NCBI GenBank assembly: GCA_963854835.1
Contig: OY978526.1
Span: forward strand, 38,664,501-38,728,500
Reading direction: 5' to 3'
DNA length: 64,000 nucleotides
From: Megamerina dolium
Taxonomy: Eukaryota; Arthropoda; Insecta; Diptera; Megamerinidae
Below are positions 4,932 through 51,961 of the stretch, in pieces. A program made the position numbers and the translations under genes. Each line of letters begins with the position of its first letter. Within the stretch, counting starts at the first letter, position 1. Under the pieces are notes generated by a model that was not told the origin of the DNA, searched no databases, and saw only the letters and a program-made list of their open reading frames with translations.

Positions 4932-4990
4932 TACTTTAAGATTAGTCAAATTATACTAATTTTCCTTTTCGCACAATTTTCCGAAAATTT

Positions 4991-10200: not shown

Positions 10201-10214
10201 TGCTGCTCTTTAAA

Positions 10215-10716: not shown

Positions 10717-10718
10717 GG

Positions 10719-10940
10719 GTGCCATAGCTCATTGGTTGGCCTTCTGATCTGTAGGTCATAACTTTAATATCGAAGTGATTTTCTTTCGAACGGCACGCAC
10801 CTGCCTGCAAGTGAGTAATAATATGCATTAAAAACGCTTCTAAAAGATCTCAGTGACATAGCTCGGAAACGGCTCTACCGTTTGGAACCGGCTAATAATA
10901 CAGAGGCAGATCTCCTTCTAATATTGCCTAAAATTTTAGT
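10719..10940 (+). repeat. tRNA-derived SINE, truncated and diverged copy
   Basis: It begins GTGCCATAGCTCATTGGTTG (decayed A box) and continues with TTCTGATCTGTAGGTC, the CTTTCGAACGG block and GGAACCGGCTAATA, all in the order of the full copies. The 3' part after the ATTGCC motif is missing. It abuts the mariner relic, so it probably inserted into or next to it. Confidence 0.75.
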
Positions 10941-13490: not shown

Positions 13491-13496
13491 CACAAC

Positions 13497-13774
13497 AAAA
13501 CTATTTGCTTAGAGGCAAATTTGACTCTACATTAACCGATCGAATGCAACTAGCTCTTGACATCACTCATGACTGGTGTCAGGAGAAAGGACTCTCGATT
13601 AATGCGAATAAAATAAATGTGGTGCCCTTCACCAAAATAAGGAAATTGAGTATAGAGACCCTAACACTAGGGGACGCAGACTTAATTCTATCTGAGGAAA
13701 TGAAATATCTAGGAGTAATCCTAGATAAAACCCTGACTTAAAATAGCCATTTATCGTATATAACTGGCAAAGCA
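13497..13774 (+). pseudogene. LINE reverse-transcriptase fragment (jockey-like)
   Basis: The frame reads GKFDSTLTDRMQLALDITHDWC, then GLSINANKINVVPFTK and EEMKYLGVILDKTLT. These are the thumb/post-palm motifs of jockey-type non-LTR polymerases (DRMQ..L..WC, GL.VN..K, YLGV.LD). A TAA stop replaces the codon after TLT, where NSHLSYITGKAK continues. The YADD palm upstream and everything after GKAK are missing. The downstream break coincides exactly with the start of an unrelated repeat arm (13775). Confidence 0.7.
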
Positions 13775-14736
13775 AAGTTTTAGTTTAATTCCCTTGACTT
13801 TGTATGGGAGACTCATGAAGGAGTGGGCGTGGCACACTGATTTTCTGCCAGCTATTTGCCGACTATGATATTAATTTAAGTGTCAATTATGGTTATTCTA
13901 GACAGAAGATTGCCGAAGTTACAGCTGTTTCAATTTAAAATTTGTATAAGGGCTACGATAAACACTGGGCGTGGTGCGCCCATTTTCTGTGAGCCTAGTT
14001 GCTCGTACAGTACTAATCCACACCTTAAATTTCGTTATTCTACGCTGAATAGTTTGCAAGTTATAACCCGTAACATTTTTTTAAATTCCGCAACTTTGTA
14101 TGGGAGACCCAAAAAGGAGTGGGCCTGGCACACTGATTTTCTGCCATATTATTTCCGACTACCATGTTAATCTAAGTGTCAATTATGGTTATTCTGGACA
14201 GAATATTGTAGAAGTTACAGCTGTTTGAATTTAAAAGAAGTACAGACACTTTGTATGAGAGCTACGCTAAAAAGTAGGCGTGGCTCAACCACTTTTGGCG
14301 AGATTATATAGTAGTATAATAAAAGTCTATGTGCCAAATATTGTTGTCCCAAGTGGTATATTATGTGAGTTATAGCAAGTTAAAGATTTTGAAAATTTCG
14401 AGGTTAGTCGCTTTGAATGCTTGGTGTGGGCGTGGTTATTGACCGATCATGCCCAATATCAATCCCCTCCGTACCCTTGGATCATAGATTACTTATGCCA
14501 AATTTCATCAAAATAGCTCAATATTTACTCAAGTTATCGTGCGAACCAGCCAGGTGACAGACAGACGGACGGACGGACGGACGGAAGGACGGACGGACAT
14601 CGTTAAATCGAAAATTTAATCGACGCTGATCACGAATATATATCTATGTCTATATCTCCGGAGATTCCTTCAAGTGGACACAAACATCTGACCGAAATGA
14701 ATATACCATGCATATTGCATTATGCAGGGTATAAAA
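13775..14736 (+). repeat. Inverted-repeat arm 1 of a dispersed repeat family
   Basis: About 0.96 kb that is almost identical to the reverse complement of 15313 to about 16268. It includes a GGAC/ACGG tetranucleotide run (about 14563-14600), the GAGATTCCTTCAAGTGGACA block, and an end in CATTATGCAGGGTATAAAA. It is 5'-truncated relative to the longer copy at 15313-16955. I did not assign a named family. An open frame at 13880-14170 is a by-product of the repeat and is duplicated in the other arm. Confidence 0.85.
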
Positions 14737-15312
14737 TCTTATAGAAACTATACTACACGATTTCAATTCTTTTAAATCTCTTTTAAATAATTATTAATTC
14801 AAATTAAATTTTAAATGAATGCCCAAAAAGTTTATTACGTATTACTTGATAATGTGTAAAATATTCCTCTTGATTTTTGATCAATTTCATAAATTAAATT
14901 TCTACATTTAAGGGTACAAAAAATAAAGATTTTGCAATTAAATCCCACCCCATTCAATACTTGAAAAATTATAACTATTACAATTAACTACAAAAACAAC
15001 AAAACTTGCGCGATTTCAACTCTTTTATTTTCTATCAAAAAAAGCGTAAAAACTTCAAAGTTTTTACATCAATTACCACAAAAGCAAGCTGCCACCATCT
15101 CTACTAAACGAATCGATGTACAATACTTGCTTACACCACACACAGCCAGCCAGCGATTGCTACTGGTGGTGGTGGTGCTGCTGCTAATACAATTTTTGGA
15201 ATATTTCATCAGTTAAGTTCTTCTTCGTTGACTTCTTTTTGCATTCTTTTGCAATTTACTATCTCTCTGCACTAAGTAATCAATTCAATTTTTTGTATTT
15301 TGTTCACATTTT
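14737..15312. other. Spacer between inverted-repeat arms
   Basis: About 576 bp of AT-rich unique-looking sequence with a short GGT/GCT trinucleotide tract near 15163-15185. No gene seen. Confidence 0.5.
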
Positions 15313-21735: not shown

Positions 21736-21817
21736 GACGAGGTGGCCGAGTGGTTAAGGCGTTGGACTGCTAATCCAATGTGCTCTGCACGCGTGGGTTC
21801 GAATCCCATCCTCGTCG
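21736..21817 (+). tRNA. tRNA-Ser (anticodon GCT)
   Basis: An 82-nt class II tRNA. The acceptor stem GACGAGG pairs with CCTCGTC, with discriminator G. The D arm reads TGGCCGAGTGGTTAAGGC, the anticodon loop CTGCTAA has anticodon GCT (reads AGC/AGT), and the long variable arm is typical of serine tRNA. The T arm contains GGTTCGAATCC (B box). No intron. It looks functional and is followed by a run of T. No other tRNA lies in the window. Confidence 0.96.
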
Positions 21818-23012: not shown

Positions 23013-24617
23013 TATTCGAAGGGGGAATCTTTCTTAGATACCGTCCACCATAGACGGCATGTACGATTCATACTGTCCGCTAAAGGTACACCTCATTCGG
23101 GACCACGCCCAGTCAGTAATATCTTACTATGCTGGACTTGCGAACCAGTACGCCTACGTACTAAACCCTTAACTCCGACCTCTATAGCTTGTTTGTGTCC
23201 TGCGGGACCGCCGTTAAGCACTACTTCGCAGGACTAAGCTGAGCTAATATGCCTCTTCAAACATCCCGTACATGGCGTTCACACAGCTGCAGTTATATTT
23301 CTCCGCTGCCACTCCTTCTTCCTGAGCTCCTTGAGAGCTATTGCAGCCCATTCTTTCATCTTAAACCACACTAAACTCGATCGCAGCATATGGCTCACAA
23401 TGTTATCAGGTGTTATCCTTTCATTTATTATCTTCTCTATGGTCATTCTCTGCGTCTCAAATCTTAGGCAGAAGAAAAAGATATGCTGAGCGTTTTCGCC
23501 AACAGTGTTGCAGAATGAACATTCTGTCGCGTCATCATGACCGAATCTGTGGAGGTACTCTCTGAAACAACCATGGCCCGTCAAAAACTGCGTAAGGTAG
23601 TAGTCTGTCTCTCCGTGTCCTCTTTCGACCCAAGCTTGCACGTTTCTGATGAGCCTGTGGGTCCACCTCCCTTTTCCTGCGGCGTCCCATTGACTTTGCC
23701 ATTCATCTAGGCTCGTCTGTCTCTCCTCTTTCCGTTCGGTTGCCGTTAACCGTCTATTCAGGCTTTTGGTTCTGTTATATACTCTGCCCAACTCCGAGGC
23801 CATTATGTCCGGCGGCATAATGCCGGATATAATACCGGCACCTTCTTGTGACACTGTCCTAAATGCACATGCAACTCTAATAGCGCTTAACCTGAAAACT
23901 ATCTTCGCCTTCTTCGAGTATGTCTTTTGCCGCAGAGCTGCCCCCCATATAGGCGCCGCGTACATCAATATTGATTGACTGCCTTTAGCCAGGAGCGCTC
24001 TCCTACTCTGGCTGGGGCCACCAATGTTGGCCATGATTCTCGTCAGAGCCGCTGTCATTGTTGCCGCCTTCCCGCAGGCTTTTTCGATATGCGCCTTGAA
24101 GTTGAGCCTCGTATCAATCATTACACCTAGATACCTCAACGAAGGTTGCGTTGTAATGTTGTAGCCGTCAATGTTTAGGGTGATTTTTTCGAGTTTTTTC
24201 CTGCTCGTGATAAGTACAGCCTCTGTTTTCTGTACCGCAAGCTGGAGCTTTGTCGTCGTGAGCCAATCCTTAATTTTCGAAGCTGTCTCTCTGCAGATGC
24301 TCTGAACTTGGGAGAGCTCCTTCGCAACGATCGTCACGGCAATGTCGTCCGCGTAGCCAATTATCTGGGCTTCTTTTGGCAATGGAAGGTTTAACACCCC
24401 ATCGTACAGCACGTTCCACAGTAGCGGGCCAAGTACAGATCCCTGCGGCACTCCACCCGTCACCACGTAGCTTTTGGGCCCTTCGTCCGTGTCATACAAC
24501 AGTAGTCTGTCAGACAGATAACTATTTATTATTCGCATTAGGTACGCTGGCGTTCCCTTTGCCTCCAATGCCCTCATAATAAGATGCCAGTTTGCCGAGT
24601 TGAAGGCATTTTGTACG

Positions 24618-24621
<4 letters not shown>
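22981..24621 (-). mobile_element. 5'-truncated non-LTR retrotransposon (R1-clade-like) inserted in (CA)n
   Basis: Read on the minus strand, the element starts inside the polymerase ORF (IDVQNAFNSANW, 24621), runs through the stop codon (23279-23281) and a roughly 270-bp 3' UTR, and ends in a 31-A tail (22981-23011). (CA)n lies directly outside both ends, so the insertion split a (CA)n/(TG)n microsatellite. The long tail and uninterrupted frame suggest a recent insertion. Confidence 0.85.
23279..24621 (-). CDS. Partial reverse transcriptase of the LINE (5'-truncated ORF2)
   Basis: About 447 codons without a stop. Motifs in order: IDVQNAFNSANW (RT motif with the first catalytic Asp), GGVPQGSVLGPLLWN, GYADDIAVTI (YADD catalytic pair), KLQLAVQKTEAVL, LRYLGVMID. 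The C-terminal part includes TGHGCFREYLHRFG and the zinc-knuckle-like CSFCNTVGENAQHIFFFC. There is no RNase H domain. Together with the microsatellite target this fits the R1 clade. The endonuclease, ORF1 and first RT motifs are missing, so the copy cannot move by itself. The first internal ATG is at 24577, but this is a truncation, not a true start. Confidence 0.85.

Positions 24622-24648
<27 letters not shown>
24622..24648. repeat. (TG)n microsatellite, right of LINE
   Basis: The TG run at the 5' truncation point of the minus-strand LINE; the partner of the run at 22943-22980. Confidence 0.95.
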
Positions 24649-25970
24649 ACTAATATACAGGGTGCTGAATTTTGAGATGAAAATTAATGTGTGCTTGAGT
24701 ATAGAAATTGCGACATATAATTCGTGCCAATTTGTTAGTATAAATTATAGTCCATACCCTGTAAATGTACATATGTACTTATGTATACTTACTTATATAG
24801 ACTTACTATACATAATATGTACATACATATACAGTAGTTATACATGCATATACAATATAGCCTATTTGACTTTGGCATTTGCGCCAAAAGCACATTTAAA
24901 GATTGAACGATGGAAAAAATAAAATCTTTTAGTTTCCGCGAAATTTTCTTTACAATATTCTTTTGCATTATATTCACCCATCCACTCAGTCATCTTCACT
25001 TCTGAAAATTTAAATATATTACAGAATTATAGCCGTCTCCAACCACCAAACCATAACCACATGCATGTAATCCTACAGCACAGCAAAGCAATACTCATAA
25101 CGAATCACTCACTTGCTTATAGTCGGTCTGTTCGCTCGTTACACTTTTCCAAAATCCAAATGAATTGAATTGTGGGCGATAAAAATAAATCTCATCGCAT
25201 CAGGATCGCATCAGTATTGTAAAGAATACTTTCATTTCAAATTGAATTCCTTTACCAATGTAGTGTAGTGGTGACATTTGGCATTTTCCGAGATGTAAAT
25301 ACATATCCATACTTTAGATACATATATATGTATGTATGTATTGTTGGCATTGTAATAAATATATTTGCATACATACATATAGAATGCTGAGATGATATAT
25401 GATGTTAGTTTGTATGGTAATCATATATACACTATGGGTGATATGTAAAGGGCGGCTCAATGTAGTTTTTGTAATATTTTTCATTAATGTTTCATTAAAG
25501 TTGGGGCAAGTAGTAAGTAAGTATTTGAGAAGTAAGAATATGTCATGAATAAACTACTCTAACGCTATTTGAGAAGGTTGCCGTTCGAAAACGACTAATA
25601 TAAATAATTTCATTTCAATGATATTCAAGTTTAACACATATAACTGAGATGAGAAGGTCGGCCAAGGCTTTTCTACAACAACTAAAATCTCCAGAAATTT
25701 TAGTTGTTGATAACGCTAAATTAGCTGTCAATTTTACACCTGTTGTCAACAATTATTCAATACTATTCTTTGAACACCCCATATGTGCGTGTGCTTTTGA
25801 TAAAGACCCAGTTTGCAAATAGCATATCCATAGTAATTAGTAAAATATACATGAAGGCCCCAACATGCAGAAATAAAATCTGGGAAATGTGTTTGCAAAT
25901 CTTTAAAAAACTGCCCACGAAAATGTCCTGACATTTTTTACGGTTAGTTTTTAATTAACAATCGTTTGAG
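24649..25970. other. AT-rich DNA, no gene recognised
   Basis: No gene, RNA or transposon end recognised. ATGTACATAC-type motifs are frequent near 24770-24850 and 25310-25380. Confidence 0.5.
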
Positions 25971-27260: not shown

Positions 27261-27585
27261 ATACTTATGGTACACTTATAGTTAGTACTGGTATTATATA
27301 GTCTATGGACTTTTAATATATAAATTTTACGATATATTCACTCGTAACTCACACACACTCATACCCTCAGCTAAACAATTGCAAATAAAATACTCGTAAA
27401 TTATGTAAGTATCCTCGAATGAGTTCGACTCGTATATGTGCGAATATGCAGTGCTGTGTGTTTGTGGTTTTATAGAGAATGATATCATAATATTGATGAC
27501 ATTTTAATCGAAATTATATTATTTTGTTCTCATTCTTCTTTTACTTATACGCGATACTCAAGTGTATGAGTAATTAATGATTATT
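27261..27585. other. AT-rich DNA downstream of the Fanzor gene
   Basis: No gene. The near-palindromic segment at about 27550-27575 (ACTCAAGTGTATGAGT) and the following 25 bases are the closest candidates for an element end 3' of the Fanzor gene, but no matching end was found beyond 29.45 kb. Confidence 0.4.
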
Positions 27586-27600
27586 TAAGCATAAGCTTAA

Positions 27601-27626
27601 ACCCCCTTCAAATGGATGAAGGGGGT
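27601..27626 (-). other. Perfect hairpin at the 3' end of the Fanzor gene; candidate guide-RNA or terminal structure
   Basis: ACCCCCTTCA (27601-27610) and TGAAGGGGGT (27617-27626) form a perfect 10-bp stem with a 6-base loop, in an otherwise AT-rich flank. The stem overlaps the last base of the Fanzor stop codon (27626-27628). In TnpB and Fanzor systems the guide RNA (omegaRNA) is typically made from the 3' end of the nuclease gene and the adjacent element end, so a structured element here is in the right place. Whether it is a guide-RNA stem, a transposon-end hairpin or a chance palindrome cannot be told from sequence. Confidence 0.5.
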
Positions 27627-27697
27627 CAAGTGACCACAGTACATCGCTTAGTGGCACTTCGATTCTTCTTTCTCTTCTTCGGCGGGGGCTCATCGTC
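27626..27697 (-). CDS. Fanzor terminal exon with nuclear-localisation-like basic motif
   Basis: After acceptor AG (27699-27698, preceded by a TTTCTCTTTTC pyrimidine tract on the minus strand) an open 72-base exon in phase 0 encodes 23 residues. They begin DDEPPPKKRKKNR and end in VVT before TGA (27626-27628). PKKRKK is a classical monopartite nuclear-localisation motif. A spliced C-terminal tail of this kind is expected for a eukaryotic nuclease that must reach the nucleus and would be absent from a bacterial TnpB. The exon is too short to be found by ORF length alone; it rests on splice signals, phase and the motif. Confidence 0.75.
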   Translation of the reverse strand, partial: DDEPPPKKRKKNRSATKRCTVVT

Positions 27698-29450
27698 CTG
27701 AAAAGAGAAATAAATGAAAGAGTGATTGATTAGATGATGTTTGATTCTAAATAGTGCTTCAGATTCAACTTACGTTGTTTCGGTGGAAATTCCTGTGGGT
27801 TTCGATTCCCCGGATGAGGCACTCGCCAATGTACAGGATGTTCACGCCAGCGTTGACGTCCCGATTCCAACAAGTACGGCAATTTGGGCAAAATTGGTAC
27901 CTGTGTGGAGATCGGGACGTGATGTTCTCGGCGTGGCATTTCCCACACAACTTCGTCGTCCGGAACTCGTTCACATACATTATATCTGCACCGCGGCTCT
28001 TCAGCGCAGAGATCAGTTTCGGCTTTGGAGTTCGAATGTAGCCCCGCATCGGCGAATTCGCAGCGATGTTCGTTGATCCAATGCAAACCAACGCATTGGA
28101 GGCTCTCTTCTTCAAATCCGTACCTATGATCTCTGTCGCTATGCGGTGCGCTGCCTTCTCAGTGCATATGAACTTTTGCAGCTTTAGGCGCGTGACTCGT
28201 CTCTGCGAAAATATCTCTTGTTTTGCGGCAAATATACTCAGCTGATATCGTGTGTAACTGCGAAAATCAGCTGAGTATGGTGACAGCTGCCGCAACTTCT
28301 GTTCTTCTTCAGAGATATTTTCGCTGGTCTTGGTCTGTGTCCAGCGTTGCAGTTTGACCTTCCTTGAATGGTACCCTGCCTCGTGTTGGTACCTGCTATT
28401 CGAGATCTTCAGCGGCAAGCCATTCCGAGTTCCCCCCACAATGAGACGGAGGCCGGGATCGAGACCGATTTTGATGTCGGTATCGGTATTTCAGATTTTG
28501 CTCAAATCCCCAGCATAATCATTTGCTTTCTTACGGCACTTGACCCGCGATGTTGTGGCTGCTGCTGCCTGCAGGGTCTTATCCATGCAAAATGATATGC
28601 TGACGCCGTCCGTCATCATTGAATAACCGAACTTTTTCGATGTGGTCTCAGGGAACTCGAAATACTTGCGCCATTCAGCGTCTCGGTTAGGCTCAAACGC
28701 TTTCTGGCTACCCTTAAACAGACCAAGACTACATAGTGTGGCGTGCAGTTGAGACGAGTCGTACCGTACGTGATGCGCTCCGAATTTCTTTATTGGGATC
28801 AGCCCAAAGTTTTTGAAATTGTTCTTCTCATTGTAGCGCTGCAGTTTGTAGAAAAAGCGCATGTACTGCCAATAGTCGTTGCTCTTTTTGATGTTGTTGA
28901 ACTTTTGCCCATCCCAGTCCAAATGTGTTCGCATCTGGGAGAGCAAAGTTTCATCAGGCTGTTTGCAACTATTGTCCACAAACAGGTAGTCTAGCGTGTT
29001 GTAAATACTCGCTGGTGTGGACCCATCAACACGCCTAAGGAACCTACGGATTCTGCTGTACGCGTGCATCCATATATTGTTGTGGAAGATAGTCTTGTAC
29101 GTGTTCGCAGCATCGACAAACAAGTTTGACCTGTATGCGCTGTTGTACAGAGGTAGATCATTCCTCAACAGGCCATACTCGCTGTCCAACACGTACTTTT
29201 TGGGATGCTTTTGGCAGAGACAGTAGAAGAAGTCGAGGAAGTTTGGCGCCGCAAAATCATCCTGTTGCCATCTTTTCACCAAGCTGAAGTGGATATAGCG
29301 TGACGTTTCCACTATCAGCGATGAGATTTCTTTGACATCTTCTACTATCTTCACGTACAGAGCATCGTTCTTACAGCAATGCCGGAATCCGGACTTGACG
29401 ATTACCGTCTCTGTAGGCGGTTGATCTTCTTTCTGCTTCCTCTTCGCCAT
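27626..29450 (-). CDS. Fanzor (eukaryotic TnpB-like RNA-guided endonuclease), two exons, one in-frame TGA
   Basis: Predicted OMEGA-type RuvC nuclease; family members cut DNA guided by an RNA encoded at their own 3' end. From the ATG at 29450 one frame runs to a splice donor at 27773 (559 codons), then a 23-residue second exon. The N-terminal half (about residues 1-319) is basic and helical-looking, like Fanzor wedge/REC regions. RuvC-I is KIGLDPGLRLIV (D331). The alternative catalytic Glu of Fanzors is in VNEFRTTKLC (E495). A zinc ribbon follows, C502-x2-C505 and C521-x2-C524. RuvC-III is NRDVNAGVNIL (D531). Codon 320 (28491-28493) is TGA, 11 codons before D331, so as read only the N-terminal part would be made; all nuclease motifs lie beyond it. 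The locus looks more GC-rich than its flanks. No transposase or clear terminal repeat accompanies it. Family call is strong; Fanzor1/Fanzor2 subgroup not assigned. Confidence 0.9.
27698..27773 (-). other. Fanzor intron (76 bp, phase 0)
   Basis: The donor GTAAGT (27773-27768) follows the codons for FHRNN, and the acceptor TTTTCAG ends at 27698. Reading through would add only V-S and a stop. A length of 76 bp is typical of small dipteran introns. Confidence 0.75.
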
Positions 29451-30706
29451 TGAAGAGTGAGAAAGGCACTCAATTTACAACACTACTACTCCTGTTTAAT
29501 ATGGAAACGCTAAAGAAGACAACAAACAAAAACGCTGCTATATGCACTATAATAATGTATGTAAACGGGAAATGGGAAATGCAACGCGATTGCTGACGTG
29601 TAGGAATGATGTTGTTCCTAAAACAAAATTTAAAAATAGCAAGAATAATTTAGTACAATGGCACAATACTTTGACATGTGCAACTATCAAAATTGACAAT
29701 AAAATATATTCATTTATTACGTCGCGTTGGAAATGGATCTTATGGATGGAAATGGAGTCTCAAATTTGAATCACAGAAGATTTATGAATTCATGAGCCTT
29801 TTGGACTCTTTTGCAAATTGGCTAATTTGGTATCAAACATTTGTGTAGTCGAACTTTTATGTAAATTAAAAATCTTCAAAATATCCGCATGTATCAAAAT
29901 TGCGATTTAAGAATGGATGTGAAAACATTTAAATAGATCATTAAAAGAATAAAACCACATATCATTTGGTTTTTTCTTTTCAAATAATATATTCCCATTT
30001 TAATCATAACGATACACAATCTCAGTTTTGTTAATTTTACTCAGCAATAAAATTTTTAATACCGGTTTATTTAAATACGAAGAACAATTCATAAATGAAA
30101 TTCTTTTTTCTAAATAAATAAATTATCTTTAACACCAAGAATCACGGTTATTTGACCCTAAAAAAAAAGTATGTTTTTCCTACGTTTTCATAAAAGGCCT
30201 TATATTATTCCCCATTTTCCCATATTTCAAAAATGCAACAATGAGCGTGAGGATATCATGATATTATTCTACAAAATAACTGCCAACATAAAAAACAACA
30301 AATTTTATTAAAATCTGTACATTACTTTCACTTAACGCAATAAAATTACCATTTCATATTAAACAAATATTTGTATGCTACACGACTACTCGACTACAAA
30401 ATAATGCATTGTATAAATTATACAATATTTGCAATTAGAATTACTATTACAATAATTGTGGTACAAGAACGAAGATTGCATTAAACTTAACTAAAGAAAT
30501 TCTTGTAGATTGCAATTAATTTCCCACAATGTTCTATTTGTTTATTTACGAGCACGATTCAATTAAAATAAAATGCTGTAATTTTTCAAAATTTATTACA
30601 TTGTTTAACGAAAAAGCAAAAAAAAAAACGCATTATAATAAATCAAAAGATTTTATATGCAAATATTGGCTTTTAAAATTTATGGTTTGGAACTTTGGAA
30701 CAGTAG
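29451..30706. other. AT-rich DNA upstream of Fanzor; partly duplicated near 40-41.5 kb
   Basis: No gene recognised. The segment at about 29832-29905 resembles 40068-40150, and about 30253-30370 resembles 41405-41530, in the same order and orientation. No clear element boundary for the Fanzor was found here. Confidence 0.5.
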
Positions 30707-30708
30707 TA

Positions 30709-31270
30709 AAGAGTGATCCAATAGGAGGTACTTTTTCCAATAGGGATTCTCAGACATCTCATGCACAAGAACTGTCATGTTCATATGACACTTGTGTTCA
30801 TTATTCATTGACATTTCACCATGAATAGATTTACGCCAGAACAACGTTGGCAAATTGTGGAAATTTATTTCCAAAATCAACCACACAATACGCCAAACCA
30901 TCGATTTATTGAAAGAAAGTTTTAATGAGAACATCATATCAAGAAATGGTTCTGTAAATTGGCCTCCAAGATCTTGTGTTCTAACGCCGTCGGATTACTT
31001 TTTATGAGGGTATGTGAAATCAACCTCATTTTATGTCGGTTTATGTCGCATAAGAAGCGAGCATGAAAATATCGGCGAGATGCTTCAAAATTGTACCCAT
31101 AGAGTGGATCATATAAGTGCCAATTGCGGACAAGATTTAACAGAAATAATTTTCAAACATTAAATGTCATAACCCGAACTTACGTCTCAAATACAATTTT
31201 TTATTATTAAATTAATTTTAATGCATTTTATTTCGAAAAGACTTCCGGAAGCTCTTACTGGATCACCCTT
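30709..31270 (+). mobile_element. Deletion derivative of a DD41D-type mariner-like element
   Basis: A 562-bp element with terminal inverted repeats (left AAGAGTGATCCAATAGGAG; right, read inverted, AAGGGTGATCCAGTAAGAG) and exact TA on both sides (30707-30708, 31271-31272). Inside, the transposase start MNRFTPEQRWQIVEIYFQNQ is joined directly to the late catalytic region (RQTIDLLKESF, VNWPPRSC, LTPSDYFL then stop, GYVKS). The DNA-binding middle and first catalytic Asp have been deleted, and the rest has a stop. It is a different subfamily from the copies at 3.6 and 50.6 kb. Confidence 0.85.
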
Positions 31271-31594
31271 TAGAATGCAATTATGTAGATATTTATCTGT
31301 GAATATCATAGAAAGTATTATGGTAATCAAAGGGTGTTAAGTCGTTGTTTGAGTATACAGTACAATTCAATAAATCTAATCTAATCTAATAATGCAGGAA
31401 GCTACATTCAAAAATTTGAAACTTATTTAAAACGGGGAAGTAGGGTGTAGAAATTTATTTTAAGAGTAAAATACTGAAATCTATTAAAGTAAGTCATATA
31501 ATTTTAGATGAGAGAACTATTCTGATATTATATTTTCTGAGTTTTGCCTTATACATATATACAAGCTTGCATTGCATATATGATACTGTTAAAA

Positions 31595-31720
31595 TTTAAC
31601 AGTCCTGATTTGTACCTACTTCCATTAGTCGATCCCAAACGGAAGAACTTTTGTGAGACCACTTTTCCTAAGCTCTGTCATGGATAGTAATTGTCATTTT
31701 CGGATTTCTGGAATATTGTG
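31595..31720 (-). repeat. Decayed fragment of the tRNA-derived SINE
   Basis: The plus strand shows CCTACTT, then a CGATCCCAAACGGAAGAACTT block, then CTAAGCTCTGTCATGGATAG, in the order of the minus-oriented SINE body at 32.6 kb, with many substitutions. Neither tRNA-like head nor tail remains. Confidence 0.55.
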
Positions 31721-32307
31721 ATATTGTGAAGATTATTTTTGAACTCAGTTGCATAACTGAAATTTAACAATTTCGATTTTTAGCAATCTATGTGATATAA
31801 GACGATTGAAAAATTGATTAAATCTATGAGACGAGCTTTTGATATTGAATTCAATAAATCTAAATTCTGAATAAATCTGAATTCAACAAGTATAACCCGA
31901 GATATTGCAATTTAAGTAACACAGAAATTGACAAAACTTTGTCACTTCTCAATTTGTATTTATGTAAATTTATTTTACATAAAGAATTTGTTAAAAAATT
32001 TTCGCAGCAACATATTTATAATTTTGAATCAATTTTTCGAATAAATGCCCAGTAATTTATGTCGTATCACGAAATGTATCAATATCAAAATAGAATAAAT
32101 TTAAATTTATTTTTCAATTTAATTATAGTAAACCATTGTCCTTTCAAAATTACAATAGTCAAATACGAATAATATTTCTAAGCTATTTATTTTGAAAGTG
32201 GTATAAACGTAAGTGTTAAACGTAAACCCTTAAATAGATCGACTTAATAACAAAGTGACTTATGGCACTTTCAAAATAAAAGCACAATACAACTCAAAAT
32301 TGCCTAC

Positions 32308-32406
32308 CTTATTTGATGTTACTGGACGTAAGGCAACGTATGCTGAGCTGAATATGTATGTACGTGCTGCTTTTGTTGGGCAAGGTTTTATTTTTGCAAC
32401 AAGATC
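32308..32406 (-). other. Exon-like box A (33 open codons with splice signals)
   Basis: On the minus strand a pyrimidine-rich acceptor (TTTCTCAACAG) precedes a 99-bp open stretch that starts DLVAKIKPCPTKAA and ends RPVTSNK, followed by the donor AAG|GTAGGC. Length divisible by three, a good acceptor and a good donor make it the most exon-like member of a set of related boxes between 32.3 and 39.5 kb. No known domain. It could be an exon of a host gene or long non-coding RNA on the minus strand, or chance. Confidence 0.4.
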
Positions 32407-32548
32407 CTGTTGAGAAAGATAAAATATACAATTATACGATATGTATTTTACAACAATTTGAATACAAAATAAAAATATATTAAAGAGCAACAAAAGTGAA
32501 TGTTCAAAAAACATTCTGACATAGGAACACAATATGAACATTGAACAT

Positions 32549-32910
32549 AAAAAAAAAAAATAAATATTTGGCACTTAAAGCCCCAAAGGGCTCATTGGCC
32601 CAGCTTCTCTTCCATTACTGTTGTGCGTCTTAAATTTTGGACAGTATTAGAAGGGACCTACTTATTTTAGCCGGTTCCGAACGGCAGAACACTTGTGACA
32701 TCACTTTTTCTGAGCTTTGTCACTGAGTTCTTTTAGAAGCTTTTTCATGGCAAGTTGTTACTGTCGGAAGAATTGCCAATTGCTTGCCGACAGGTGGGTA
32801 CCATTCGAAAGAAACATCTTATCGATATTAAATTTGTTATGCATCAGCCGGGGATTGAACCACGACCTACAGATCAGAAGGCGAACACACTAACCACTGA
32901 GCTACGGCAC
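32549..32910 (-). repeat. tRNA-derived SINE, copy 3
   Basis: A near full-length copy in minus orientation: tRNA-like head at 32910 down (A box complement CTAACCACTGAGCTA, B box complement GGGGATTGAACCACG), the body, and an A/T-rich tail at 32549-32570. It interrupts one of the local duplicated units: the flanks (AACACAATATGAACATT.. and ..ACAACTAAATTACTGACC) are contiguous in the unit near 34.2 kb. Confidence 0.85.
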
Positions 32911-32929
32911 ACACCATAAGTACAACTAA

Positions 32930-33600
32930 ATTACTGACCTTTTTATTTGTTGTTGGATGCGATGTCGAATTTTGGAGCAATTAATGCTAGTCGACGTGTG
33001 TCAAAATCTCTGTTGCAGTCAATAGGCTGCGTCACTCAGCATTGAGAAGTAAGAATGTCTAAAAACAAAACAAACTGTATAGAAGCAGGTATACTAAAAG
33101 TTATATCAGTTAAATTACTTTTGTATTCGCGATGGCTGAAAATTAACTGTCGTACTTAAAAATGGTATCAGTTGGTAATCAATTGTACTACAAAGAAAAA
33201 TTTTACAAAATAGTAAAAATTATTAGTATAATAAATAATTAATCTTATGAACATTTACTAAAGAGTACCAAAACTACGCAAAATAACCTACCTTCTTATT
33301 TGTTGATGGACGCGAAGCCGAAAATGTAAAATGTAAATGTAAAAATCTGTCGAGCTGCAATAGCTTCTTACGTCAATGTGCTACGAAGAAAAAATTAGAA
33401 AAAAGTTAATATTAATTGTATTACATGAATAGTTATATTAAAATTAATAATATTATTGTATAAAAGTAAGAAACCATTTTGAAGAGAACATTCAATAATA
33501 ATATCAATTTGATCGTCAACAATGACCACTGTGCAACATGTACATACATTAAAGAGCTGCACGAATTCTCTCATAGAGTTAATGCGGATTAGCTGCAATT
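32930..33600 (-). repeat. Local duplication unit 1 with three degenerate exon-like boxes
   Basis: Boxes near 32936-33010, 33110-33150 and 33285-33360 have minus-strand 3' ends of the form AACAACAAATAA.AAG followed by GTCAG/GTAGGT. The unit ends with TTTGATCGTCAACAATGACC..GCAACATGTACATAC. The same order of boxes and tail recurs at 34560-35288, so this is a diverged duplication. The boxes are mostly not open in a shared frame. Confidence 0.6.
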
Positions 33601-34239
33601 TATGATCGAGTTAATCAGAATTAACTCGGTAATACGGAATTAGGCTGCCGTCTGTCTAAGCTATTAGGCATTCTTGCAAATCACACTCCAAATAAGTCGA
33701 TTTCTAATGACTTGCTCGAACATGCAATTAACTAAAGAGCATATACTAATAACTCAATACAAGGAAAGCACAAGTCACGTTTTCCGAAAAAGTTCTTCGA
33801 AACCACAAGTGACAACTATTTGGTTTTCATCTGCATGGAATTTCAATTTCACAATCTCTTGGCTTAATTGAAGTAATCAAAAACCATGGCGATGCCACAA
33901 ATTATTGAAAAACATTTGCAATCAATAACAAAATCAATGCATGAAATAAAAAATGTGTGTTATTCAAGTTTAATATTTTTTCTTATAAAAATGTAGGGTG
34001 TTGATTTAATTCTTTATCCTTTATCCTTTATCCTATCATCCTTTAATAAACTTTTACATATATGTAATTTAACCGTCCTTTCAAAATATCAAAAGCAAAG
34101 CTACCAATTTTTCTAAAATATTGAATTTGAAAATGTATGTCACTTTACGCATATTAAACGTGCAAAATGCAAACCCTTAAATATATTGATTTAAAAGAAA
34201 AATGACTTAATAGGAACATAATATGAACATTTACTAAAA

Positions 34240-34350
34240 AGCACAACTAAATTACTGACCTTGTTATTTGTTGTTTGATGTGAAGCCAATTTAGCCACCA
34301 AGTGGACGTGCGTGTGTCTGTCTGTTGCAAAAATGTGTCGAGCTGCAATA
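34240..34350 (-). repeat. Degenerate exon-like box, single copy
   Basis: The minus strand reads TTATTGCAG, then CTCGACACATTTTTGC, and ends CATCAAACAACAAATAACAAG before GTCAG. Translated, it resembles box A (AARHIFATDR..ASHQTTNNK versus AARTYIFSS..RPVTSNK). The same CTCGACACATT start recurs in the boxes near 33.35 and 35.06 kb. Confidence 0.45.
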
Positions 34351-34559
34351 AGTAACTTCGTTGGACATAAAAATGTCAATACCACGATTGTTGTTAATAA
34401 ATTATACTACAAAGAAAAAATTTTACAAATGTGCATATTAATTAATAGTATTATTACTTATTATTATATTAATAGAAAGATTACTTATTATATCAATATT
34501 AATAATATTATTGTATAGACATATTCAAACACTTTAAAGTGAATATATACTAAAAAGCA

Positions 34560-35288
34560 GCAAAACTACTCAAAATAGCCTACCTTGTTAATTGTTGTTG
34601 GATGCGAAGTCGAACTTGGGAGCAATTAATGCCTGTGAACGTGTATGTGTCAAAATCCTTTGGAAAAATGTGTTGAGCTAAAAACAAAATGAACTATATA
34701 TTATATAAGTAGGTATACTAAAAGTTATATAAATTAAATTACCTTTGTATTGGCGATTGCTGGAAATTAATTGTTGTTCTTAACATGGTGTAAGTCAGAA
34801 ACTTACGAGTGGAGATCAAAACGTCATAAATTTTCGTAATCTATTACACTACAAAGAAAAAATTTTACAAAAAAGTGAAAGTAGTATTATTATTATATTA
34901 ATAGTAAGATTTTTGTATAAACATATACATTTTAAAGTGAATATAGTATACTAAAAAGCACAAAAATTACATAAAATAACCTACCTTGTTATTTGTTGTT
35001 GGACCTGAAGCCGTTTTTGGAGCAATTAGTGGTAGAGAATGTGTGTGTCAAAATCATGCAAAAAATGTGTCGAGTTACTGGTAATCAATTATGCTACGAA
35101 GAGAAAATTTGAGATAAAAATTTTAATAGTAATAGCAATATAATTATTAATATATGAATTAATTAATAGAATTTAATAATATGATTGTATAAACATAAAC
35201 ATTTCAAAGTGAACGCTTTAAAAAAAGTTAAATAAATATCAATTTGATCGTCAACAATCATTACTGTGTGCAATTTGTGCAACATGTA
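34560..35288 (-). repeat. Local duplication unit 2 with degenerate exon-like boxes
   Basis: Paralogue of 32930-33600: boxes near 34580-34680 (donor-like AAG|GTAGGC), 34738-34790 and 34980-35075 (AAG|GTAGGT), then AATTTGATCGTCAACAATCA and GCAACATGTA, where the Tc1-like element is inserted. Box spacing matches unit 1. Confidence 0.6.
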
Positions 35289-36939
35289 CAGTGGCTCACA
35301 GCTTATTTCGTACAGTGTATATATTTTTATGTACATGGCTGTAACATCGAAACTAAAAAACTTATCAATAAGTTTTGAATGTAGATGTCTATGTACGTGT
35401 TTAGTAAACCTAATAAGAAAACGGGGAACCCCAAAAATTGTTCTTTTTGTCATGCAAGAGAGAAAAACTATTGATCAGCTGATTTTCAGCTCACATCTTA
35501 TTTCGTACACAAACTTCAATGTAAGTAAGTTTCATTCTGCCGCGCAGTTACAAAGTATTTTTGAATTGTATGAGTTTTTGGACCTTTTTAACTATTATAA
35601 CAATTTTTATTATTATTATTTTAAATAGTTAAAGTGCTGTAAATTAAACATTTAGCGTTATGGGTCGTCGTACAACGATGGAACAGCGTAAACTGGTAAT
35701 TAACCATTTTAGGAAAGGTCAGAGTGTGCGAAAAATTGCTGAAATGACAAATTTAAGTGCCTCAACTGTCCAATACATCATTCAACGCTTCGTTCGCGAA
35801 AATCGGTTGGAGAACAAGGGCAGAGAAGCACCTAATAAGATTTTCAACGCATCAGACGAGCGTTATATTGTACGAAAAATTAAGAAAAATCCAAAGTTAT
35901 CCACTCCGAAGTTGGCTGCAGAGGTTCAGCGTGAAATAAGAAAATCATCCAGTGCTGAAACTGTCCGACGTGTGCTGCGCAATCATGACTTGAACGGTCG
36001 AGTAGCCCGAAAGAAACCATTCATTTCGAAAATGAATATACAACGCCGACTTGACTTCGCCAAAGAGCATATTATTAATACTCCTGCGTTCTGGAATACC
36101 GTTATTTTCGCGGATGAGTCTAAGTTTAATATTTTTGGCTCGGACGGAATGTCATATGTTTGGCGTAAAGCGAATACCGAGCTAAACAAGGAGAACCTTA
36201 AGCCCACAGTGAAGCATGGTGGCGGTAGCGTGATGGTTTGGGCCTGTATGTCAGCAGCCGGAGTAGGTGAATTGGTTTTTATTGAGGAAACAATGGACAA
36301 AATGAAGTACCTCGAGATTCTGAAAAACAATTTACTTCAAAGTGCAGACAAACTGGGTTTGCGGGAAGAATTTCGGTACTACCAAGATAATGACCCAAAA
36401 CATAAATCTGGGATTGTGCAATCTTGGCTTATTTGGAACTGCCCACACTTGATGTCTCCACCACCACAGTCACCTGACATGAATGTGATTGAAAATCTTT
36501 GGTCTATTTTGGACAATAAAATAAGAACACACAAGATTTCTAATAAGCAAGACCTAAAGAAGGTACTGATGGAAGAATGGAAAAAAATCACACCAGACAT
36601 CACTCAAAAATTGGTGGATTCAATGCCAAATAGACTCCAGGCTGTCATTAACGCTAAGGGATGTCAACTAAATATTAAAATCAACTTACTTTGTTTTTAG
36701 TTTGAACTTAAAGAGACTGTACGAAATAAGCTGTGACATGAATTTTCCTATTTTTTTCTTATTTTATTTTTTTATAGTGTCAAACACTAAAATTTTGAAA
36801 AAGTAAATTTTGGAAAATAAAAAACAAACCTTCCTTTCTAAAATGGCATTTATATTTTGTTCAAATTTTTGCTATATTAGGAATTACGACTGCAGCAATT
36901 TTTAAACTGTCACTGTACGAAATAAGCTGGGAGCCACTG
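35289..36939 (+). mobile_element. Tc1-like transposon, apparently complete (IR/DR type)
   Basis: 1651 bp with 29-bp terminal inverted repeats differing at one position (left begins CAGTGGCTCACAGCTTAT; right, inverted, CAGTGGCTCCCAGCTTAT) and TA on each side (35287-35288, 36940-36941). A second, internal motif pair containing TTATTTCGTACA occurs at about 35495-35510 and 36718-36738, the double transposase-binding-site layout known from other Tc1-family elements. An intact transposase frame lies between. The site without the insertion is recognisable in the paralogous unit at about 33530-33560. Confidence 0.93.
35660..36700 (+). CDS. Tc1-like transposase (DD34E), intact frame
   Basis: 346 codons, no stop or shift, within the usual 340-350 aa for Tc1-family transposases, which excise and insert their element at TA. 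An N-terminal bipartite helix-turn-helix region (about residues 7-50, QSVRKIAEMTNLSASTVQYI, and 65-115) is followed by a basic linker (RVARKKPFIS, 114-123). The catalytic triad is D152 in FADESKF, D243 in YYQDNDPKH and E278 in NVIENLW, with exactly 34 residues between D243 and E278. The Gly-rich segment GGGSVMVW (187-194) is present. Frame, triad and termini suggest that this copy may still be active or was until recently. Confidence 0.95.
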   Translation: MGRRTTMEQRKLVINHFRKGQSVRKIAEMTNLSASTVQYIIQRFVRENRLENKGREAPNKIFNASDERYIVRKIKKNPKLSTPKLAAEVQREIRKSSSAETVRRVLRNHDLNGRVARKKPFISKMNIQRRLDFAKEHIINTPAFWNTVIFADESKFNIFGSDGMSYVWRKANTELNKENLKPTVKHGGGSVMVWACMSAAGVGELVFIEETMDKMKYLEILKNNLLQSADKLGLREEFRYYQDNDPKHKSGIVQSWLIWNCPHLMSPPPQSPDMNVIENLWSILDNKIRTHKISNKQDLKKVLMEEWKKITPDITQKLVDSMPNRLQAVINAKGCQLNIKINLLCF

Positions 36940-36944
36940 TACAT

Positions 36945-37166
36945 AAAAGAGCTGCAAGAATGTTATTCGGTTTTCTAATATTGTAATTCTCTTTACACTC
37001 AAAACATGTAAATAGCTTATCTAAATAGAATGGAAAAGAGTGAGAGTAAAATATACGTAATGTGATCTGTTTTGTTATTGAAGTCAGTTACGAGAAGACT
37101 ATTCTCTTTACTTTCATTTGGAAATTCTCTTAATACTGAAAAGAAACACATTTCTGCAGCTCTCTA
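36945..37166. mobile_element. hAT-type MITE (222 bp)
   Basis: The ends read AAAAGAGCTGCAAGAATGT (left) and, inverted, TAGAGAGCTGCAGAAATGT (right). The 8-bp target duplication ATGTACAT is intact on the right (37167-37174). On the left it is split by the Tc1-like element into ATGTA and TACAT. No coding capacity. The AGAGAGCTGCA end matches the terminus at 41101-41116 of the truncated hAT transposase locus. Confidence 0.75.
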
Positions 37167-37234
37167 ATGTACATACACATCATCGTCTGTAGCTTCGGTT
37201 GCGGCTGCCATAAAGCCGAAGCTACGAACATGTG

Positions 37235-37985
37235 CGTAGGTTGTGTATGCATCCCTTCTGTATGTACCTACGTAGATATGATACAGAACAGTTATGAACA
37301 TATGAACCGTTATGTTTGATTTTCTTTTGTTTAATACAATAAAGACTTTCAGCTTCAAATTCTTATTTCTAGACATTGAAATTGAAATTTTCATAAATAA
37401 CACAATGAAGTCTTTATAGAGATATGTTACTGGAAAGCATCAAAACCACACAAATTTTAATTTAATTGAAATGTTTGAAATCGAATACAAAAGAATCATT
37501 GAAATTGGATACTCTCGTAGAAAAAAAAAATATAATTATGAACAAAATCACTTGTATTTAAATTAATTAACAATAGACACTCATAAAATTCTGGATGAAA
37601 AGCATTCTTGTAAATTTGGTAGGTAATATATTAAATTACGAAAACTGTACAAAATTACCTACTGTTATATGTATGTAGATGGTCGCGAATATTTCAAATC
37701 AAATTTGAAAACAATTAATGTTAGTTTAAGTCTTTTTCTTTTAAATATGGTACTATCAATACCAATCACAAATCAATTAATTCAGCAATTCAATATTTCG
37801 CACAAATAATTAATGTTAATATTTTATTATCCATTCAATGTTGCGCACAATGCACTATGTACATACTCTCACTACGTAATTTGTTATCCTTTCTGCACTC
37901 ATTTCACAACTGACTATGGCAAATGTTTGGTAACAGAAATTTGAAATGAAGCGTCGCTTGCTTTTTTTTTATCAACATAGTATAT
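37235..37985. repeat. Segmental duplicate A (pair with 39197-39775)
   Basis: Shared blocks in the same order: TACCTACGTAGATA.GATACAG, GAACATATGA.CCGTTAT, AATTTAATTGAAATGTTTGA, a box with TTGATGGTCGCGAATTTTTC-like sequence (near 37670), AATTGAAAGCG-like and TAGTAT near the end. The copy is cut at its right end by a Harbinger-type element. Confidence 0.7.
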
Positions 37986-38228
37986 CAGCCCGATTCTGAA
38001 TAACAATTCCCCGGGAATTTTTCCCTTTTCCCTATTCTTGTATTCTGAATATAAATTCCCCGGGAGTTTTTCCCTTTTCCCTTTCCTCCAATTCTAAACG
38101 AACTTCGAAATCGGGAATTTCTTCCCTGGGAAAAAAGTAGGCATTCCGAATGTAAATAAAAGGGAGAATGTGATGACATTTATTGAAAATTATTCCGCCA
38201 ACTATCTGCAAGGGAGTTGTATGCAAAA

Positions 38229-38475
38229 ATGTAAGTATTTAATTGTTTTCGTAGAAAATGGAATAAATGTTGTTATTTATTAAATAAATAACATTATTTA
38301 TTACTATTACAAATATTATTATGGCATTATTATTACTTTCAGGTCAAAAACAACGAACAAGTTCCATTTCGATCTTATGCTAAATGCAATGCAATCACAT
38401 CCCGACATTGCGCGTAGATTCTATAAAGGAAACAGGGAGGAGCTCACCAGATTTTGGCGAAATTTGGAGGTGGAA
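38229..38475 (+). pseudogene. Harbinger accessory DNA-binding protein, N-terminal remnant
   Basis: Exon 2 (from 38343, after acceptor TTTCAG) reads SKTTNKFHFDLMLNAMQSHP, then DIARRFYKGNREELTRFWRN, similar to the Myb/SANT- or MADF-like second protein of Harbinger elements. A donor GTAAGT at 38231 would join AT to G, creating the start codon across the splice junction. The frame runs into reverse-oriented transposase sequence and the rest is lost. Confidence 0.6.
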
Positions 38476-38959
38476 TTAAATTCGTATTATTGCTACGAAT
38501 ATGCGTCCCATCAATACATCCTATAACACCTGGAATGCCGTGCTTCATATAAAAGGCTAATACTATTTTCTTTTTTTCTATAGCCGTTTTGGAAAATTTT
38601 ATCCATTCTGGTCATACATTTTCTTCAAAAATATTTATGACCTCCTTCAACACTTTGCTGAAGCTACACTGGACCAAGGACACAGCACAATCTTTCCCTA
38701 TCCCTGCGAATGCCTTTTTGGGCTGAATATGCGACGACAACACAATCAGCAGATACATAAAAGCGGTCTTGTTCACTCTATAATATTTTTCAAACCTTTG
38801 AAAATGAATAATTAATATAATAAACACATATAAAAGTAACTTATTATAATTACAATGTATCCGGCAGTTCAAGCAGATTTGCCGCGTCGCGTAACTGCCT
38901 CCTTTGTTGTTGCTTCTTTCGCTCCTGCTATACATAATTTTTTTATAGTTTGTACACAA
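38476..38959 (-). pseudogene. Harbinger transposase, deleted remnant
   Basis: The minus strand reads FEKYYRVNKTAFMYLLIVLS, then a shortened link to SFSKVLKEVINIFEENV and a stop. It continues in the same general order as AIEKKKIVLAFYMKHGIPGV and IGCIDGTHIRSN, the latter carrying the first catalytic Asp motif (IDGTHI, about 38505). The middle (the ...GSxQ..SQSSVSR region) and everything after the first Asp motif are missing. Confidence 0.75.
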
Positions 38960-39196
38960 TTCTATTGTTTTTATATTTATTTATTTAGAATTATTGTTAA
39001 AATGTAACAAATAAATTGCACTTCTTATTCAAAACAAACCACAATAAGTAAAACAGCTGTCTTCGAAAATTCGAAATTCTCTTTCCCTTTGTATTCTGTT
39101 CCCTGATTGTTTAGAATAGGAGGAATTTATTCTCGGGAAAGATCAAATTCCCGGGGAAAAATTCCCCGGGAATATTCAGAATCGGGCTGTATATGT

Positions 39197-39775
39197 ACCT
39201 ACGCTTCTATATGTACCTACGTAGATACGATACAGAACAGTTATGAACATATGAGCCGTTATTTTTGATTTTCTTTTGTTACTGTTATTTCACTTAAATA
39301 TTGAAATTTAATTTTTCATGAATAACACAATAAAGTCTATAGAGATTTACAGGAAAGCATCAAAAAACCACAAATCTTAATTTAATTGAAATGTTTGAAA
39401 TTCAATACAAAAAGAATCATTGCAATCGACACTCAGAAAATTCCAAATACCCGTAGGTAATACATCAAACTATGAAAACTGTACAAAATTACTTACCTCG
39501 TTATATGTTGATGGTCGCGAATTTTTCAAATAAAATTTGAAAACAATTAATGTTTTTCTTTTAAATTTGGTATTATCAATACCAATCGATCAACACAAAT
39601 CAATATATTGCAGCAATTCAATGTTGCGTACAATGCACTACACACTTTCACTCGATCAGTTGTTACTCTCTCTGCACTTATTTCACAACTGACTATGGGA
39701 AACGTATGGTAGCAGAAATTTGAAATCAAGCGTCGTTTGATTTTTTTTTTTAGCAACATAGTATCTTTGGTTCTG
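39197..39775. repeat. Segmental duplicate B (pair with 37235-37985)
   Basis: A diverged copy of 37235-37985 without internal insertions. It contains another exon-like box whose minus strand ends CATCAACATATAACGAG before a good donor GTAAGT (about 39490-39530). The pair shows where the Harbinger-type element entered. Confidence 0.7.
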
Positions 39776-40160
39776 ATTTTTTTATCTTAGTTCAATGTTG
39801 CCACTAAGGAACATTTTTTTCTTTTAAGTTGCTATTGTAGAACTAGAAATGAAAGATTTTCTTTTTAGCATAAACATATAAACATAAACGAATGAACATT
39901 CAATTAATACAATATCCCAATTATTATTATTAATTGTTAACACAAGATATATTTTTACATGCTTAATTTTTAACATATTTTATAACTACTTGCTCAATAT
40001 TTTGAAATTTTCTATTTATTGAAACCAACGTTGTTTGGCACTATGTCATCAGTGAGTTTTATAGTTTTATATCAAACATTAGTGTAAAGTCGAGCTTTTA
40101 TGAAAATTAAAAATCTTAATATCCGAATGTATCAACATCTATCAAAATTACAAAAGTTGA
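39776..40160. other. AT-rich DNA, no gene recognised
   Basis: The second half (about 40068-40150) is related to 29832-29905. The left end of the hAT fragment was not found here. Confidence 0.5.
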
Positions 40161-40163
40161 GAA

Positions 40164-40751
40164 TTATCTACCAATTATTCGAAAATATTTGACCCGCACA
40201 TAGTCCGTCCACATGTCGATTGTAGCTGTAGCTCCACCGCTGCTCACAATGTTATTTATTTCTTCTTTAAGTTTTTCTTTTTTTTCATTTGCGTACTTTT
40301 GGGCTTTGCGGGAAATTGTTGTTGGGTTAGGTAGCAAATCCTCTACATCAACGTGCTCGCCATACGTTGCACCAATCTTGATAAAGAATTTTACCAGTTT
40401 CGAGAAGCCAGAACCTTGAACTGCTGAAAATGGCCGACAGTCTTCAATAATCCATGATGTGCATTTTTCAATGGCTTCATTTTTGTCTGACGCTGTGACA
40501 GTTTTTAAGTGCTGCGACTCTTTGATTTTTTTGCAGCATGGGTGACGAATTAGGTTAGACGTCTGTCCATTGCAATACTTTAATACTTTTAAGCAACTGC
40601 GACAGTAAACAAAACCTTCCAGTACAGTTTCATCCGCCTGTATGATTTCAGATAAAACATTCCATACGAAACTTCGCCCTTTGCGCCGGCCAGACAGTGT
40701 ATAGTTGCCATTGGCAATGTTCTCACTAATAGAATTTTCTCTTGTTGTCAT
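40164..40751 (-). pseudogene. hAT transposase (hobo/Hermes-like), N-terminal part only
   Basis: 195 open codons from the ATG at 40751. A BED-type zinc finger occupies about residues 28-75 (FVWNVLSEI, then YCRSCLKVLKYCNGQTSNLI and RHPCC). The Hermes/hobo-like block WIIEDCRPFSAVQGSGF follows (about 100-117), then DLLPNPTTISRKA, and the first catalytic Asp in ATIDMWTD (about 178). The frame leaves the family right after WTDY and stops, so the RNase H-like core's second Asp, the insertion domain and the C-terminal Glu are gone. About a third of a normal 600-aa hAT transposase remains. Confidence 0.85.
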
Positions 40752-41116
40752 TCTGAACTTAAAAACACATAAAGCTTCGCTAATTGCTGTTAATCACTTC
40801 TCATAAAAAGGTTGACTGCCGTTCATACATATATTATTTAAGATTATATGCAAATTTTGTGCACACTCGAGTGTTACTCGAATGCATTCAATCAGCTCGT
40901 GTGCCGAGTAGCTGTTCGTGTGTGTACGAGTGTCCATTCGACACTCGATTATATCAAACATTTGCGCATTTGGTTCGAGTTTTGCGAACAGCATGTTCGT
41001 CTAGCACTCGCTCCTAGCGGCCAATACTTGTACTCGTACTTAAAAGTTTGATTGCAACAAAATCCGAGTGTATACTCGAGTGCGCACGAAAATTATGTAC
41101 CCGTTGCAGCTCTCTG
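40752..41116 (-). mobile_element. 5' end of the truncated hAT element: terminal repeat and ACTCG-rich subterminal region
   Basis: The element end reads CAGAGAGCTGCAACGG on the minus strand (41116-41101), a hobo/Hermes-type terminus. Between about 40862 and 41085 the word ACTCG/CGAGT recurs many times in both orientations (for example ACTCGAGTG twice), as expected for clustered subterminal transposase-binding sites in hAT elements. The opposite terminus was not found. Confidence 0.65.
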
Positions 41117-41639
41117 ATGTAGTGGACCTAAGGCATGATTAGATTATTTTGAAGCTAAGGCTTTAGTGCAATGTTACCATTTTAATGTTTTTGGGTTGAT
41201 GCTATTTGAATTGATAATATTGACAATGAATTGATGCGTATGCGTATAATTTTAGATTACATCTTTCGCATTACATAAGTTAATGTCAAATAATGATCTA
41301 TTGTATTTATAAAATAAAAAGAAATTATGTCGAGCGTTGTTGACTAAAGTCGCTGTCAACATCATGTTCATGTGAATGTACGAAATAGACAGATCAGTTT
41401 TATCAATTTTATTCCACAAAATGACTGCCAACATAAAAAAGAACAAATATTTATTAAATCCAGTACATTACTTCCACTATGATGTGATTGTGCAATAACG
41501 CAATTACATTACCATTTCTCATTAGACAAGAATAAAATAGAATCATATTTGTGTTAGTTGAACGAGTATAGTGTTACTTCCTTTTTTCTTTGACCTGTAC
41601 TACGCCCCCTCGATAACAAATATTGGTACGACTATTGGT
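41117..41639. other. AT-rich DNA, partly duplicated from 30.25 kb
   Basis: About 41405-41530 matches 30253-30370 (ACAAAAT.ACTGCCAACATAA and following). No gene. Confidence 0.5.
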
Positions 41640-51895: not shown

Positions 51896-51961
51896 TACAT
51901 ATACATTTAATATATTATATTTAATTTGCATCCAGGTATAACCGAAAAATTTGTGGGTCAT

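Follow-up and report, generated by a model that had tools for sequence, protein, structure and literature searches.

TnpB in bacteria has been proposed to aid the persistence of its element. For Fanzor, cutting at the sister chromosome has been put forward as an aid to spread (PMC10432273; this and the other published accounts are cited from the portions available). The published Fanzor signature pairs a DPG motif with an alternative glutamate located six residues ahead of the zinc finger, and Fanzor1 right-end RNAs are described as having three stems, with transposon-end sequence within the scaffold, and as running about 15 nt past the target duplication (PMC10711439). Fanzors with solved structures come, according to the record titles, from a chytrid, an alga, a mould and a giant virus. 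Fanzor1 in flies is already known, since 13 Fanzor1 families were reported from the Hessian fly in 2013, its MDe families being grouped with the Fanzors of insect viruses (PMC3627910).

The locus presented here lies in the window, a 64,000-nucleotide stretch of the Megamerina dolium genome (C2:38664501-38728500), which we analysed together with a search of the whole assembly (500.5 Mb in 8 contigs). In our reading, to which we give a probability of roughly three in four, the window holds a recently broken Fanzor1 copy on a high-copy, probably non-autonomous mobile element, whose right end would supply an omega-RNA and whose flank would supply the guide. Its copy number, the recent selection on its siblings and its well-defined right end are the points of interest.

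The Fanzor1 gene, its in-frame stop and its predicted intron

The first exon occupies 27774..29450 on the minus strand, comprises 559 codons with one interruption, and is assigned from its frame and motifs, its Fanzor1 profile match and its fold. A sequence-only reading of this DNA had placed GLDPGLR with D331, VNEFRTTKLC with E495, a CxxC...CxxC ribbon at residues 502-524 and D531 in a minus-strand frame beginning at 29450, and all of these are in place. The frame translation puts the codon for the RuvC-I catalytic aspartate (D331) at 28458..28460, that for the alternative RuvC-II glutamate (E495, as defined in PMC10711439) at 27966..27968 and that for the RuvC-III catalytic aspartate (D531 of NRDVNAG) at 27858..27860, with the C4 zinc ribbon (C502 to C524; PF07282) at 27879..27947, all on the minus strand. 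The D331 column is kept at 90% or more in alignment A1. As in Fanzor1, the RuvC-I motif contains DPG (D331-P-G), the RuvC-II glutamate stands at the alternative place with six residues separating E495 from C502, and the C4 ribbon is followed by the RuvC-III RD with D531.

The window protein matches PF07282 at 1.7e-10, scoring 41.3 bits where the cut-off is 26.3, and the NCBIfam guided_TnpB model at 2.5e-8, yet with 33.6 bits, below that model's curated cut-off of 100 bits. Profile matches and a fold comparison of known members prefer Fanzor1 over Fanzor2, TnpB and Cas12; Fanzor1 is the best family far ahead of TnpB and Cas12, and the fold matches solved Fanzor1 structures at 17-18% identity in structural alignment. 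An uninterrupted sibling protein used as query returned 18 homologues (best E 1.7e-194), and a relative in Rhagoletis zephyria, a fruit fly (P0014), is 46% identical over 56% of this query. A scan of viral contigs with P0018 found no relative. A contrast in base composition noted earlier is also borne out, exon 1 having 48% GC against 34% for the window. Judged on these sequence and fold comparisons, the window gene is one for a RuvC nuclease of the Fanzor1 type, with cleavage activity predicted.

The description of the locus as a Fanzor nuclease gene thus holds for the type of protein, now specified as Fanzor1, but passes over a break in the window copy: an in-frame TGA at codon 320 (28491..28493, minus strand), 11 codons ahead of D331, so that the residue numbering used earlier runs through a stop. 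Codon comparisons show that unbroken siblings bear the mark of purifying selection, with a median dN/dS of 0.207 over 98 sibling pairs with dS > 0.05 among 16 uninterrupted frames, whose loci are best matches and not a random sample; pooling 21 closer sibling pairs gives 0.25. The window copy itself gives dN/dS of 0.13-0.29 against the 16 siblings, and decay, if any, is therefore recent. This range, together with a frame that is open apart from the one stop in 559 codons, could also mean that the stop is false or harmless (an assembly error, a polymorphism or a site of readthrough) and that the gene in the window is functional. We give little credence to this alternative: the TGA is absent from all 16 distinct uninterrupted sibling frames among the loci examined, and the nested transposons hint at a copy that is older and at rest.

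The gene continues across a GT-AG intron of 76 nt (27698..27773, minus strand; GTAAGT...CTTTTCAG), predicted from sequence and copy comparison, into a second exon at 27626..27697 on the same strand, which encodes 23 codons (DDEPPPKKRKKNRSATKRCTVVT plus stop) and is basic, resembling in our reading a nuclear localisation signal. The intron did not figure in the sequence-only reading, though the end it gave to the gene, 27626, fits exon 2 and is the last base of its stop codon. Among distinct copies, 22 of 22 have a GTAAGT donor and an exon 2 that stays open up to a stop codon, the presence of the donor being guaranteed by construction because the search was anchored on a fixed stretch of exon 1 preceding it. 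The acceptor is CTTTTCAG in 20 of the 22 and CCTTTCAG in one, and the remaining copy (L034) was given another acceptor, at 96 nt. Eleven copies have an intron of 72 nt, eight one of 82 and two one of 76, and the frame of exon 2 stays constant after intron removal although these lengths differ by 4, 6 and 10, which argues for real splicing. Comparison of copies thus shows a spliceable intron and a basic tail exon common to the siblings.

In unspliced RNA of the window copy (27720-27661, minus strand), the pyrimidine tract of the intron would, by prediction, base-pair with the purine-rich codons that encode the basic tail; both are of low complexity, and the pairing may be trivial. Because the tract can pair with the basic exon, the unspliced transcript might, on a reading that we consider rather unlikely, serve as the omega-RNA and the spliced transcript as the nuclease message.

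A zinc-ribbon match would by itself permit a bacterial TnpB, present through contamination or a symbiont. The splice sites common to the siblings speak against such an origin, as do a Fanzor1 match far better than the match to TnpB or Cas12 and the dispersal of copies over several contigs of the 500-Mb assembly, and the chance that it is correct is in our estimate vanishingly small.

The right end and the predicted omega-RNA

Three hairpins are predicted in the last 113 bases of the element (-35.2 kcal/mol, z -4.16), a fold that none of 200 shuffles equalled. On the minus strand, stem A (27628..27659), which is based on this fold and on pair counts in 17 right ends, overlaps the last codons; stem B (27602..27625; CCCCCTTCA-TCCATT-TGAAGGGGG) lies directly 3' of the stop codon; and a terminal hairpin, TTTAAGC-ttat-GCTTAAA (27584..27601), marks the conserved right end of the element near 27586. 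The flank past this end (27566..27585, minus strand) is the predicted guide, with its length assumed, by analogy to published Fanzor1 right-end RNAs (PMC10711439). The loop of stem A varies in length between subfamilies. Pairing holds in 99.7% of 306 cells across 17 hand-picked distinct right ends, which are close relatives, and each stem has a single pair altered on both sides. The covariation score of this sample was reached by 1 of 500 shuffles and its count of both-side changes by 9 of 500, while its measure of further pair types was reached by all 500; compensatory changes in the predicted stems are thus few.

The right ends examined share a common ...GTGGTCACTTGACCCCCTTCATNCATTTGAAGGGGGTTTAA, followed by a subfamily-specific hairpin (TAAGC..GCTTA, TTAAGTCG..CGACTTAA or TAATTCGGAATTA..TAATTCCGAATTA) and then by unrelated flank; partial repeats aside, right flanks are alike only between overlapping loci or within a local array. 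A stem of at least five pairs occupies the terminal position in 40 of 47 right ends and begins in 32 of 376 control stretches; as exceptions, the stretch of one locus (L027) lacks a right end and the copy at C2:26347665 (L052, L059) has no hairpin. Ends of the piggyBac kind were considered from a TTAA beside GGGGG at the right end and dropped, the next bases being the subfamily-specific hairpin.

We read the right end as a putative omega-RNA plus a transposition end. One locus (L064/L073, C2:16776301-16778650) has stem B and the terminal hairpin, with no Fanzor or stem A detected in the preceding 2 kb, and a right-end pattern at C2:915903 carries the same two changes as this locus, which may be part of another element sharing that end. 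Because the two hairpins occur there without a detectable Fanzor, they may serve transposition alone; if this reading holds, stem A would belong to the Fanzor RNA alone, with stem B shared with transposition. A further proposal, which we consider rather unlikely, would make this a one-ended Fanzor1 element, whose single right end would be transposition end, 3' coding end and omega-RNA at once. The terminal hairpin, exchanged as a whole from one subfamily to another yet still a hairpin, would then act as a modular third stem of the RNA, with the guide re-programmed from the new flank at each insertion, whatever the 5' truncation.

Under our preferred reading of a broken copy on a high-copy element, the 3' transcript end of intact copies (stem A, stem B and terminal hairpin) would form the omega-RNA scaffold, the terminal hairpin being its last stem by analogy to published Fanzor1 right-end RNAs, and the host sequence directly past the right end would act as guide. 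The nuclease would then cleave the corresponding unoccupied site on the homologous or sister chromosome, and the element would be copied there during repair, so that its spread would be favoured. For a first insertion, a transposase would have to act on the right end in trans. The defined right end names a concrete RNA to seek in existing small-RNA data.

Genomic copies, element extent and mode of movement

A profile search of the assembly for the zinc-ribbon (TNB) domain returned 104 genomic matches, all above the cut-off, of which 27 fall within open frames of 568-569 residues by hand count; that of the window copy lies in a frame of 241 residues. The right-end pattern occurs 123 times at two mismatches or fewer, and a reversed-pattern control gave 0. 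Of 393 candidate DNA matches 40 were scored, and among these the ones exceeding 1.4 kb have 91-97% identity with the window copy. The locus had been described as isolated, which these counts refute, the window copy being one of about a hundred. The suggestion that it was acquired with, or is carried by, a mobile element survives as to carriage, on an element with many copies and a defined right end, and fails as to an isolated acquisition. In a tree that omits four partial homologues, the copies from this genome group together (100/99) next to relatives P0001-P0007, with a joint group at 88/92. Purifying selection, an intron and a basic tail would also suit a domesticated host gene that is no transposon passenger, a reading that we hold to be highly unlikely in the face of some hundred copies that lie scattered between unrelated flanks and have one end in common, many of them broken or truncated.

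The copies are clustered in places. A local array at C2:5846391-5870717 (L040-L042) holds 12 of the 104 domain matches by hand count, spaced about 2 and 4.3 kb apart, with many short frames or stops; its three right ends have identical flanks over 250 bases, and its copies therefore resemble tandem duplicates and not insertions. On C5, 33 of the 104 matches crowd into 47.8-60.5 Mb, including 15 of the 27 long frames, again by hand count.

The element in the window extends over at least 27586..41376 (minus strand), where it is colinear with a copy on C1 apart from later insertions, and likeness to locus L045 continues up to 41939. A Tc1/mariner-type transposase frame (35648..36697, plus strand; PF01498 2.1e-23, PF13358 1.2e-10) is nested within it and falls where the alignment with the C1 copy has a gap. 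A fragment of a Hermes-type hAT transposase (40167..40793, minus strand; PF10683 1.1e-38), also nested, was found by tblastn in no other locus examined. Elsewhere in the window are a reverse transcriptase frame of a LINE-like element (23282-24649, minus strand; RVT_1 3.9e-22), two DUF4817 (helix-turn-helix) frames (51065-51967 and 4104-4955, both minus strand; 4.2e-18 and 3.7e-18) and a tRNA match (21736-21817, plus strand; RF00005, 67.2 bits), beyond which an Rfam search of the window returned nothing.

Left ends are ragged. Likeness among copies begins at differing points, some copies being 2.1 kb long and others keeping only the last few hundred bases, and part of this raggedness may reflect later deletions or alignment breaks. 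The C1 copy and copies on C4 share 7.3 kb, and the left region is common to copies of either hairpin type. Within 7680-15005 of the joined stretch, the C1 copy has no frame of at least 110 codons beyond Fanzor and the frame or frames overlapping it, and no second ORF of recombinase size. A left terminus at TACGCATCAATTC (21 occurrences) was considered and rejected, because likeness extends farther left in several copies and stops variously. In 21 copies no significant target-site duplication emerged (P 0.068 for the mean match length and 0.07 for the longest match), though this survey gave one suggestive A-rich repeat (L065). A long target duplication was also considered at L015 (with L061 and L074; C2:34.63 Mb), where about 190 bp recur on both sides at 92% identity, flush with neither end; we treat this repeat as a local duplication and rejected the candidate.

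The element could be a one-ended rolling-circle transposon of the Helitron2/Helentron kind that carries Fanzor1, with copying started at the 3' hairpin and stopped at variable 5' points to leave ragged left ends; we rate this somewhat below even odds. The constant 3' end with its terminal hairpin and the variable 5' ends fit such a transposon, a like pattern is described for the Chlamydomonas Fanzor1 elements CRe-1 to 3 (PMC3627910), Helentrons carry a palindrome near the 3' end (PMC4067079), a placement like that of the hairpin here, and the genome has 33 Helitron_like_N matches. Against it, none of these lies on C2, where many copies are found, and none lies near a right end among those listed; stem B is confined in the window to the right end, with no 5' subterminal repeat matching it there or in the left regions examined, the true left end lying outside what was located; and some ragged ends may be of the later origin noted above. 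We found no transposase partner. An autonomous partner with similar ends was considered at C2:16765060-16778358 and rejected, the 2 kb before its right end holding one frame of at least 60 codons (78) and no Fanzor. The element thus resembles the Helitron2/Helentron type in its behaviour, and we do not assign it to that class because no 5' repeat, linked Rep gene or significant target duplication was found.

Comparison with described Fanzor1 elements

The solved Fanzor1 proteins of Spizellomyces punctatus, Guillardia theta and Parasitella parasitica are 17-18% identical to the window family, for which activity is predicted. In a limited search of the literature, as far as the portions available extend, no later description of a fly Fanzor1 family with this right end was found. 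CRe-1, 2 and 3 of Chlamydomonas, which are assigned to Helitron2, are alike in having an intact 3' end, truncated 5' ends, an intron-bearing Fanzor1 and no transposase inside, but differ in sharing their ends with known Helitrons, which was not found for the window family, and in having 7-19 bp target duplications in many truncated copies, where those of the window family are not significant (PMC3627910).

The Fanzor1 RNA of the Spodoptera frugiperda ascovirus is alike in having three stems and the transposon end within its scaffold, as three stems are predicted here (PMC10711439). That right-end RNA was sequenced, whereas the RNA of the window family is known from prediction, and the ascovirus element differs in having terminal inverted repeats and a target-site duplication. 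MDe of the Hessian fly (Mayetiola destructor) is, by its description, likewise a case in which a fly genome has several copies of Fanzor1 (PMC3627910). An animal genome holding dozens of Fanzor1 copies that are unbroken and under selection would offer an insect setting in which to ask whether Fanzor aids the persistence of its element and how the guide is set at each insertion.
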